From Candidatus Sumerlaeota bacterium (GTDB lineage: Bacteria; Sumerlaeota; Sumerlaeia; JADFCW01), in contig JADFCW010000008.1 of NCBI GenBank assembly GCA_017161705.1, forward strand, positions 1 to 48,824: DNA of 48,824 bases, written 5' to 3'. Positions 8,999 to 12,653 of this stretch are shown piece by piece (the first letter of the stretch is position 1; each line of letters opens with the position of its first letter). The notes below the pieces were generated by a model that saw only the letters and a list, made by a program, of their open reading frames with translations, was not told where the DNA came from and did not search any database. Made by a program: the position numbers and the translations under genes.

Positions 8999-10741
8999 CT
9001 ACTTTTCCGTTTGGAGTAGTCGCGGCAGGCGCGGTTCGACAATACGAACCGCCAGGTTCTCCACCCCATCGTCGTCGCGTTCGGGCGAACCCAGCAGGTC
9101 GTTGCCGAGATACGTGGCCTGCGTTCGCAGCGGGTCGTCCTTTGGCTCGAAGAGGAACATAATGGGCGTCGAAGCCGCCTGCGCTTTGGGCCGGAACCGG
9201 ATCCTTGCCACATAGCCGCGTTCGGCCAACACGCGCCGCCCAAGGCAAGATACCGCATACACGATTCGACCGGCGGTATTCGAGACGCTGTTCTCCAGAT
9301 GAATGTCGAACGGAAACTGGTCGTGGAAATCGCCGTCAAAAATGTTGACGCCGGTGGTAATCCAATTGTTTGCGTCGTCGTCCACCACTTCGAGAACGTT
9401 GGGATCGAAGGCGATCTTCAGCGCCAACTTGCTGACGTCGAGCAGGCGCGGATTTTCGAACCACACACCCACGTAGAAATCCTCGTTCACGGGAATCTCC
9501 TCGCGGTTGGTGGTCAGGCGGAGCCGGATGCCGCCGCGCGAAGGGCTTTTGCCGGGGCCGGCAAACAATTCGTCGCCGATAGGCGGTCCGTCCGCCAGCG
9601 CCGCCGGCGAATACACCTGCAACGACATGCCCAGTGCGCCCGTATTGCCCGTGCCGCCAAGAATATTGACCCCTTCGGTGTTCGATAACGCCGTGCGCTT
9701 CATTTGCCATACGCCAAACGTGATGTCGGAGGCATGGACGGGGGCGAGCGACTTCCAGCGGATGGAGAAGAAATCCGCCGACTGCGCCGCGGTCGGTTTG
9801 GCCAGCCGCGCGCGATACGTCAAGATGCCCGCTTCGGTAAAGACGACCGACTCCGACTGGCCTTCGATCAATGGAGCAATATCCTCCTCGTCGAGTCGGA
9901 GCGGTTCGAGCACCCTCGGGTCGTACTGCAAAATAATCTCGATGGTTTGAAATTCCTTTTTCCCCGGATTGGCAAGCGACAGGCGTGTTTCCAGCTCGTC
10001 GCCCACGGGCACGCTGGCCTGGAATGGAGTCAGATAGACAAGGGCCACATCGGGCGGCGGGCGATAGGAAAATGCCGCCGACACGGCCGGAGCGGCCGGT
10101 GCGGCAGCACGCGGTGGAGGGGGCGGAGCACCCTGAACGACGGTTGCGGGCCCTTTGTCGCGGGTCGAAGCCGGTCCTTTGCCCGGCGGAGTCGGCACAC
10201 CGCCCGCGGGTGTCGGCGATGGCTGGGTGCGCGAAGTCCGGCCCGATGTGCGACCCGCTATGCCCGGTGCGGGGCCTGTATCGGCGCCCGTCGAAGGCGA
10301 GCCGTATCGCCCCGTGCGCGGATTGCGGGTGCGAGTGCCGATGTTCCCTGTGCCGAGTCCGCCAGGGCCGAATGTCCCGGGATAATTGGGATAGCCGGTT
10401 CCGTAGCCCGAACCGTAGCCGGTGGAGTATCCGTAAGGATTGGTCGTTACCCCATATTGGGTAGGATCTTGATAGGAATACCCCGAACCATATTGTCCAT
10501 ACTGTCCATAAGACCCTGCTGGATTGTAGCCGGAATAGGGCGTAACCGCCGGCCGGCTGTATTGTGCATGCAATGGCAGGGCCGCCAGGTTCATGCAAAG
10601 CAGGACCGCCGACCGCAACGGAGAAAGAGCGCGGCGGGCCTGCTGCGGCACGGGGCGGCTGGAATGCGCTGCCAAGCATTCCGTCTTGTTTGAATCTGAA
10701 TTCCGCCGTTGCGTAATCACAATTGCCGACGGTCCTTTCAC
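8999..10741 (-). CDS. Exported protein with Gly/Tyr-rich linker and two cohesin-like domains
   Basis: The 580-aa product has a long basic N-terminus and a hydrophobic signal ending in LPLHAQ (cleavage near residue 60). A Tyr/Gly/Gln-rich low-complexity stretch follows at about 61-120, then a Pro/Thr/Arg-rich linker to about 230. Two similar beta-sandwich modules come next. Module 1 (about 231-380) has VPVGDELETRLSLANPG and LQYDPRVLEPL; module 2 (about 405-560) has IPVNEDFYVGVWFEN and IAFDPNVLEVV. The pattern of a hydrophobic strand, a D/E-rich loop and a YDP-type turn is typical of cohesin and related modules. The GTG start has AAAAGGA only 3 nt upstream, so a GTG 21 nt downstream is possible. 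A scaffold, adhesion or pseudopilin-associated role is inferred, not shown. Confidence 0.65.
   Translation of the reverse strand: MKGPSAIVITQRRNSDSNKTECLAAHSSRPVPQQARRALSPLRSAVLLCMNLAALPLHAQYSRPAVTPYSGYNPAGSYGQYGQYGSGYSYQDPTQYGVTTNPYGYSTGYGSGYGTGYPNYPGTFGPGGLGTGNIGTRTRNPRTGRYGSPSTGADTGPAPGIAGRTSGRTSRTQPSPTPAGGVPTPPGKGPASTRDKGPATVVQGAPPPPPRAAAPAAPAVSAAFSYRPPPDVALVYLTPFQASVPVGDELETRLSLANPGKKEFQTIEIILQYDPRVLEPLRLDEEDIAPLIEGQSESVVFTEAGILTYRARLAKPTAAQSADFFSIRWKSLAPVHASDITFGVWQMKRTALSNTEGVNILGGTGNTGALGMSLQVYSPAALADGPPIGDELFAGPGKSPSRGGIRLRLTTNREEIPVNEDFYVGVWFENPRLLDVSKLALKIAFDPNVLEVVDDDANNWITTGVNIFDGDFHDQFPFDIHLENSVSNTAGRIVYAVSCLGRRVLAERGYVARIRFRPKAQAASTPIMFLFEPKDDPLRTQATYLGNDLLGSPERDDDGVENLAVRIVEPRLPRLLQTEK
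10490..10516. repeat. 9-bp tandem repeat inside the coding region of the cohesin-like protein
   Basis: The plus strand reads ATATTGTCC, ATACTGTCC, ATAAGACCC: two good units and one decayed unit with a period of 9. On the coding (minus) strand they give Tyr-Gly-Gln steps in the Tyr/Gly-rich linker. The first unit is identical to the first unit of the intergenic array at 27136. Confidence 0.6.
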
Positions 10742-10910: not shown

Positions 10911-12653
10911 TTATACCCATGCCAAGACGCCGGCGACCAGAAACGGCAGGTCGAGCAAAAATGCCCAAAGCAGATGCGAGCGCATTCTCTGCCGATAGGT
11001 GACCCAGTACACGGCAGCCATTACCAGCACAGGGGTCAGCGGCAGCCACGCGTCGCGGAATTGCCCGGTCGAAAGCCCCAGGACCGCGGCCATGATAGCC
11101 AGACCGGCCAGAATAAAGCTCAGCAAATAATGCGTCGGTTTGCGCCCTACAAGGATCGGCAGCGTCTCGCGTCCCAGCAATAAATCCCCTTCGATCTCGC
11201 GATAGTCCACTGTCAGCGAGCGAACCATGGCCAGCCCAAACACGAATCCGGCTGTCAATATCAACGGCGTCATATTGCGCCCCCCCAGCCACGCGATGCC
11301 GTACGTATGCACCCACGGGATAATGACAATCATCATCGCCCATGCCAGAGCCACGCACAAGTCTTTCGAGCCGGGAATGTTATGAAGATGACGATAGCGC
11401 ATACGTCGCGCCCAGGATTCCGGAATGCGCCCGAAACTATAGATCGCCCCCGCGAATGTGGTCAGCGCAACCAGGGCAAACACCCAGACGCCCATCCAGG
11501 CGCTGAGCACAATGGCAGCCAAAAGCGACAATAGCGCCCCGCACAGCGCCGTACGCCGATGCGCGGCAAACTGCCGCGTCGGGCCCGACACCAGCGACAG
11601 ATCGCGCGGCAGCGTCGCCCACAAATGCAACAAGTGCATCGAACCCAGATAGAAAAACGGCAGCCCCGAATAAGCCAAACGATACTCCAGACGCATCAAG
11701 TGGCTGGCGACCAGCGCCAAAGCCCCCGCCCCAAGCGCCAGAAACACCTGGCCGATGACCAGAAGCCGCAACAGAGCCGATGCCGCCCGCCACACCAGCG
11801 GCCGTCGCCGCCGTTGCAGCCATTCCAGCCGATCCACCACCTGCTCGATGATCCAATGGGGCGTCGAAGCCCCCGCCGTGACGCCGATTTCCTTATATCG
11901 CTCCAGCGCATCCAGAGGCAACTCTTCCGCCGTTTCGACATGCCACGTCGGCACGCCGCGCTCGCGCGACAGCTCGACCAGCCGCGTCGTATTGGCGCTG
12001 CCCCGCCCGCCTACAACTACCACCGCATCCACCTGTCCCGTCAGTTCAAACAGCTCCAACTGACGATTGTTGGTGTCGCTGCAGCGGGTGTTGAACACCT
12101 GCACGTTCTTACAGCGTCGGCGAATCGCCTCGACGCAGCGCTCGAAGCGGTCGCCCCCCTGTGTCGTCTGCGCCACCACGCAGACCTTTTCCAGGCCATC
12201 GGGCAGTGTTTCGACCTCTTCCGGTTTTTCAATCACCAGACCCCGCCCATGAGAATAGCCCAGTAGACCCTCGACCTCGGCGTGGCCGCGGTCGCCGACA
12301 ATAATGACATGGAACCCTTCGGCGGCCTGGCGCTCGACAATGCGCTGGGTGCGCGCCACATGCGGACAGGTGGCGTCAATGACCTCGAATCCGCCCGCGG
12401 CCAGATTCTCTTTGACGTCGGGCGCAACGCCGTGGGCGCGGATCAGAATCGGTCCGCCGCTGCGGCATTCCGGCTCCTTCGGCATTTGCTCAATGCCCTT
12501 GGTGCGGAGCAAATCCAGCGCCTGCCGGTTGTGAATGAGAGGGCCGAACGTCAGGATGCGCTGCGAGCGCTCGTGCGCCACACGAAGCGCCAGATTGACG
12601 GCACGCCGCACACCCCAGCAGAACCCAGCGGTTTTGGCCAGTCGAATACCCAT
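10911..12653 (-). CDS. ispH: IspH (HMBPP reductase) fused to a UbiA-like membrane domain
   Basis: Residues 1-285 are a complete 4-hydroxy-3-methylbut-2-enyl diphosphate reductase, the last MEP-pathway enzyme, making IPP and DMAPP with a [4Fe-4S] cluster. All key residues are visible: cluster Cys12 (GFCWGV), Cys96 (DATCPHV) and Cys191; His41, His74 and His124; Glu126 (HAEVEG); and the SANT and GAST phosphate-binding loops. Residues about 290-580 add eight or nine hydrophobic helices with the second Asp motif of UbiA prenyltransferases, DYREIEGDLLLGRETLP (about 483-499). The first UbiA Asp motif should lie near 338-352, but that region reads HLLHLWATLPRD and lacks the usual D-x-x-D spacing. The ATG at 12653 follows AAGG by 6 nt. 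The reading frame is continuous, so this is a genuine fusion in the sequence as given. Confidence 0.93.
   Translation of the reverse strand: MGIRLAKTAGFCWGVRRAVNLALRVAHERSQRILTFGPLIHNRQALDLLRTKGIEQMPKEPECRSGGPILIRAHGVAPDVKENLAAGGFEVIDATCPHVARTQRIVERQAAEGFHVIIVGDRGHAEVEGLLGYSHGRGLVIEKPEEVETLPDGLEKVCVVAQTTQGGDRFERCVEAIRRRCKNVQVFNTRCSDTNNRQLELFELTGQVDAVVVVGGRGSANTTRLVELSRERGVPTWHVETAEELPLDALERYKEIGVTAGASTPHWIIEQVVDRLEWLQRRRRPLVWRAASALLRLLVIGQVFLALGAGALALVASHLMRLEYRLAYSGLPFFYLGSMHLLHLWATLPRDLSLVSGPTRQFAAHRRTALCGALLSLLAAIVLSAWMGVWVFALVALTTFAGAIYSFGRIPESWARRMRYRHLHNIPGSKDLCVALAWAMMIVIIPWVHTYGIAWLGGRNMTPLILTAGFVFGLAMVRSLTVDYREIEGDLLLGRETLPILVGRKPTHYLLSFILAGLAIMAAVLGLSTGQFRDAWLPLTPVLVMAAVYWVTYRQRMRSHLLWAFLLDLPFLVAGVLAWV

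Follow-up and report, generated by a model that had tools for sequence, protein, structure and literature searches.

The locus described here raises the question of what a UbiA-like membrane domain does when it is joined to IspH in one open reading frame (ORF), and whether it can still act on prenyl diphosphates with an eroded first Asp motif. The locus lies in a 48,824-nucleotide stretch of contig JADFCW010000008.1 of Candidatus Sumerlaeota bacterium, hereafter the window. A first-pass annotation of this DNA implied that the fusion was novel, but such proteins were described in 2015 as IspH-UbiA "Rosetta stone" fusions (Rao et al. 2015, Chem Sci; 47 sequences, all from sulfate reducers; PMC4746011), though their UbiA half is without biochemical characterization. 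Those authors classed the UbiA part as PT_UbiA_5, reported two DXXXD repeats, and proposed membrane localization or tethering and the channelling or local supply of IPP/DMAPP; expression of the full-length protein failed in their hands (PMC4746011). Since these proposals are closely similar to the channelling and anchoring ideas of the annotation, the latter are not new. The protein in the window shares with the fusions of Rao et al. an N-terminal IspH and a C-terminal UbiA-like membrane domain in one ORF, along with separate UbiA paralogs. However, theirs were reported only from sulfate reducers and were said to have two DXXXD motifs, whereas the fusion is found here in Sumerlaeota and WOR-3, with the first motif eroded. 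New here are this range, wider than the sulfate reducers, and the condition of the first motif throughout the family.

The gene and its parts, all on the minus strand of the window, are as follows.

10911..12653 (-): the fusion gene ispH-ubiA, encoding 580 aa (ATG at 12653, stop at 10911-10913; the ORF is equally intact in the congener G001)
11823..12647 (-): IspH (LytB) domain, residues 3-277 (PF02401, TIGR00216, fold match to 3szu)
12618-12620 (C12), 12366-12368 (C96) and 12081-12083 (C191) (-): Fe-S Cys codons of the IspH domain
10914..11774 (-): UbiA-fold membrane domain, residues 294-580, with nine TM helices in the model (PF01040; model match to ApUbiA 4od5)
11601..11627 (-): first Asp motif in its eroded form (HLWATLPRD, residues 343-351), where TM2 ends (profile alignment)
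11361..11366 (-): K430-D431, part of the family motif IPGSKD, where TM5 begins (K in 47/51 and D in 43/51 nonredundant fusions)
11184..11207 (-): DYREIEGD, the second Asp motif (residues 483-490), where TM6 ends (D490 in 51/51 fusions)
10950..10952 (-): D568, in TM9 (acidic in 47/51 fusions)

The ORF at 10911-12653 contains no internal stops and encodes IspH at about residues 1-280, followed by the UbiA-fold domain at about residues 290-580; together with the Pfam matches, this bears out the annotation's account of a complete IspH joined to a UbiA-like domain in a single uninterrupted ORF. The IspH half matches Pfam LYTB (PF02401) over residues 3-277 of the fusion (E 1.5e-88) and scores 277.8 bits with TIGR00216 (cut-off 187.85). 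All of the cluster and substrate residues are present, as had been stated (C12, C96, C191, H41, H74, H124, E126, T164, S219, N221 and S263), and A. aeolicus IspH 3dnf aligns at those residues (E 1.3e-63). With a full-length LYTB match, the three cluster cysteines and the HMBPP-binding His/Glu/Thr/Ser/Asn set, this half is a member of the IspH (LytB) family, and the whole protein, in which a single ORF carries IspH followed by a UbiA-like domain at the C-terminus, is a member of the IspH-UbiA family. A search of the whole host genome (94% complete) for a standalone ispH, a check that the annotation had suggested, detected no second IspH, so that the fusion is the sole copy. The annotation had also raised the possibility that relatives carry separate adjacent genes, joined here by a missed stop or base error. 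We give such an artefact practically no chance: the ORF is uninterrupted in the window, in the congener (88% identity in the membrane domain) and in dozens of relatives from separate assemblies, which refutes a sequencing error or a missed stop.

How widespread the two-domain architecture is, another point marked for checking, was addressed by running a profile of the membrane domain over 386 genomes at a threshold of E 1e-12 or better. The domain was matched in 41 genomes, and in 38 of these, spanning 29 families, it is fused to IspH; the remaining three have a standalone match alone, in each case weak. Thus, the domain is nearly always found joined to IspH. The fusion occurs in Sumerlaeota, WOR-3/Stahlbacteria, two metagenome-assembled genomes titled delta proteobacterium, and many further lineages, with ORFs mostly of 553-671 aa in other families of the class and in other phyla; one fusion (G039) ends at a contig end and another (G020) is broken by an assembly gap. 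Within Sumerlaeota, some families possess the fusion and others do not. The Sumerlaeota without it (L078, L094-L107) have different and often longer IspH frames, of about 299-474 aa, and two of these (L078 and L094) form long branches outside the fused clade in the IspH tree, indicating that IspH is of more than one type within the class.

A single IspH was found in all 16 fusion genomes tested, and at least one further UbiA in 26 of 26, so that the fused domain is an extra paralog and not the cell's only UbiA protein. The host genome has three other UbiA proteins, whose best models are MqnP/UbiA-like, MenA-like and decaprenyl-phosphate phosphoribosyltransferase; a standalone UbiA of the same genome was considered as the true partner and rejected, as all three match ordinary UbiA models. 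The neighborhoods of 35 loci (the fusion being located in 29) revealed no partner gene recurring across phyla. In the window, the gene directly downstream of the fusion (8999-10741, minus strand) encodes a cohesin domain (PF00963, E 1.2e-11) with a long Gly/Tyr/Pro-rich N-terminal part.

The membrane half matches Pfam UbiA (PF01040) over residues 366-557 (E 3.7e-12; 46.5 bits versus a cut-off of 34.2), the match opening only at profile position 66, past the first Asp motif; all 20 domains scanned also match this model. An AlphaFold2 model of the whole fusion (mean pLDDT 83, pTM 0.75) places the IspH half on E. coli IspH 3szu (Z 32.7, rmsd 1.8 over 281 residues) and the membrane half on ApUbiA 4od5 (Z 19.2, rmsd 3.4 over 259 residues), with AfUbiA and UBIAD1 as further structural matches of the latter. 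A structure search with a model of the membrane half alone (pLDDT 83, pTM 0.84) returned UbiA proteins exclusively at E <= 0.001, including DGGGPS 7bpu, ApUbiA 4od4 and AfUbiA 4tq4. With its predicted nine-helix fold, a Pfam score above the cut-off and a Foldseek probability of 1.00, the domain belongs to the UbiA superfamily by fold. Its best sequence-profile match in the PDB is UBIAD1 (8djk), although this is weak (E 0.012), and the two Asp-motif sites in the model, at the ends of TM2 and TM6, are the same sites as in UBIAD1. The modelled helix 326-347 holds motif 1 near its end and helix 429-451 opens at K430-D431; judging from helix positions, D568 or K430-D431 may lie close to the second Asp motif.

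To determine the state of the two Asp motifs, the fused domains were profile-aligned with 13 ordinary UbiAs, and residues were counted over 51 nonredundant fusions, a set without Rao et al.'s own sequences or named Desulfobacterota members and drawn from genomes in which the phylum of one locus (L075) is represented by three. In this alignment H343-L-W-A-T347-L-P-R-D351 falls on N-D-x-x-D-x-x-x-D, so that the residues at the N, D, D and D positions are H343, L344, T347 and D351, of which D351 alone matches a canonical Asp. The annotation was thus right that NDxxDxxxD is lost, but its word "lacking" is slightly too strong, because the last Asp is retained. It turns out that this loss, implied to be peculiar to the present protein, is shared by the whole family, in which the window's genus stands at the eroded end: the canonical first motif is missing from all 51 fusions, whereas N..D..D is present in 13 of the 13 ordinary UbiA paralogs. 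None of the fusions has acidic residues at all three motif-1 Asp positions, 12 have two, 34 have one and five have none. The commonest state is N-x-x-x-[D/E]; Sumerlaeota fusions mostly show N-[KR]-x-x-[SN]-x-x-x-D, the window's genus having H and T instead, and [D/E]xxxD occurs in four of the 51 (L133, L135, L137 and L141). The protein in the window therefore has neither the NDxxDxxxD of a canonical UbiA prenyltransferase nor the two DXXXD motifs that Rao et al. observed.

The second Asp motif, in contrast to the first, is intact as the annotation had read it (D483-YREIEG-D490), and fits the canonical DxxxD / D-x2-[DE]-x3-D pattern through D483, E486 and D490. D490 is invariant in the 51 fusions, position 486 is D or E in 47 and R478 is kept in 49. 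Compared with the solved UbiA enzymes ApUbiA (4od5), AfUbiA (4tq4) and MjDGGGPS (6m31/7bpu), the window's domain shares the nine-helix fold, the second Asp motif and a Tyr before the TM4-5 loop; the fused family, however, has lost NDxxDxxxD and conserves IPGSKD where TM5 begins, along with acidic residues in TM9. The latter form a pair, E/D-x3-D/E, which in the window (10950-10964) reads A564 and D568. If the UbiA topology holds, this pair would be on the cytoplasmic side, and it might replace the metal ligands of motif 1.

In a quick tree with several long branches, the fused UbiA domains occupy one side of a branch separating them from 24 standalone UbiAs (SH-aLRT 80), which lends modest support to a single origin. 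The nearest to the fused domains in this tree are standalone UbiA-like proteins of about 290-360 aa with a degenerate first Asp motif (L028, L029 and L147-L149), two of them from Sumerlaeota genomes without the fusion. One Sumerlaeota IspH without the domain (G007; L088 1423-2367) groups within the fused clade together with G015 and G020, members of its own family (SH-aLRT 100%); hence, the domain was lost there while IspH was kept, and IspH does not require it. When the window is compared with G001, dN/dS (NG86) comes to about 0.11 in the UbiA half and about 0.10 in IspH. The membrane half is under purifying selection, as IspH is, being maintained and not decaying.

Three systems are instructive for comparison. 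In MjDGGGPS, the changes D66A, D70A, D180A, D183A and D187A all cut activity, D66A and D70A strongly, although GGPP binding is hardly altered by changes in motif 1 or motif 3 (PMC9385802). Human UBIAD1 has N102TYYDFSKG as its first motif, in which two of the three Asps are absent, and is still a prenyltransferase that makes MK-4; it also senses GGPP, and binds and controls HMGCR, which limits the rate of the other isoprenoid route (PMC9314443). UBIAD1 and HMGCR resemble the fusion in that a UbiA-fold protein is physically tied to a key enzyme of an isoprenoid pathway, but they are separate proteins of the mevalonate pathway, UBIAD1 is a proven enzyme as well as a sensor, and the window's domain additionally lacks the N and the middle Asp. 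IspH-RPS1 fusions likewise carry a C-terminal partner domain on IspH and occur mostly in anaerobes, but there the partner is ribosomal protein S1, which is soluble.

Our favored reading, to which we give about an even chance, is that the domain is, across the family, a prenyl-diphosphate-binding and probably still catalytic UbiA-fold partner of IspH. The fusion would then be a membrane-bound IspH whose IspH half, the only one in the cell, would reduce HMBPP to IPP and DMAPP, and whose C-terminal half would use the conserved second Asp motif, together with Arg478 and Lys430-Asp431, to bind Mg2+ and a prenyl diphosphate; a rebuilt metal site would stand in for NDxxDxxxD. The family as a whole would most likely carry out prenyl-diphosphate chemistry beside an IspH that makes the building blocks, and the products of IspH may be channelled to the membrane half. 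Arguing for this reading are the intact ORF in the window and its congener, the sole IspH in 16 genomes, the 38 fused cases among 41, the grouping on one branch (SH-aLRT 80, which is not strong), the low dN/dS, the retention of D490 (51/51), R478 (49/51), K430 (47/51) and an acidic residue at D568 (47/51), and the precedent of UBIAD1, whose activity with N-x-x-x-D means that erosion of motif 1 alone need not indicate a dead enzyme. The strictly kept second motif argues that the handling of diphosphate or Mg2+ is still under selection. Counted against it are the absence in the window of an equivalent to D66 of MjDGGGPS, the five of 51 fusions in which all three motif-1 Asp positions are non-acidic, the lack of a conserved neighborhood, the failed expression in 2015 (PMC4746011) and the G007 IspH without the domain. 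In this Sumerlaeota lineage, which has also lost the N and the middle Asp, catalysis is less certain.

The same erosion, seen in 51 of 51 fusions, may instead mean that the domain binds a long prenyl diphosphate without turnover and adjusts the activity or stability of IspH by feedback, in the manner of UBIAD1, which senses GGPP and controls HMGCR (PMC9314443). That GGPP binding by MjDGGGPS survives changes in motif 1 or 3 while activity drops (PMC9385802), and that UBIAD1 is the best, though weak, PDB profile match, are both consistent with such a role; however, a pure lipid sensor would not need the invariant D490 of the second motif, and the likeness to UBIAD1 and HMGCR is one of analogy. 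We regard this as possible but rather doubtful, and it is with some skepticism that we consider its fuller form, a built-in prenyl-diphosphate sensor at the membrane that tunes the final MEP-pathway step, as a convergent bacterial counterpart of the control of HMGCR by UBIAD1. It seems unlikely that the domain serves merely to hold IspH at the membrane, close to electron donors or prenyl synthases, with a cavity that has no role in ligand binding. The degenerate first motif, the loss of the domain in G007 with a closely related IspH retained, and the place of localization among the proposals of Rao et al. (PMC4746011) would fit a tether, but an anchor needs none of the polar cavity-mouth residues (K430, R478, D490 and the acidic D568) that are kept across many families, and the domain's dN/dS is close to the low value of IspH.

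The fusion is real and conserved, and is of a known, biochemically uncharacterized kind whose published range is widened here beyond the sulfate reducers. It links the enzyme that makes IPP and DMAPP to a membrane domain expected to handle prenyl diphosphates, and across many bacterial groups evolution has altered the metal site of the second half without separating the two. This pattern makes it testable whether the partner uses, senses or merely tethers the products of IspH.
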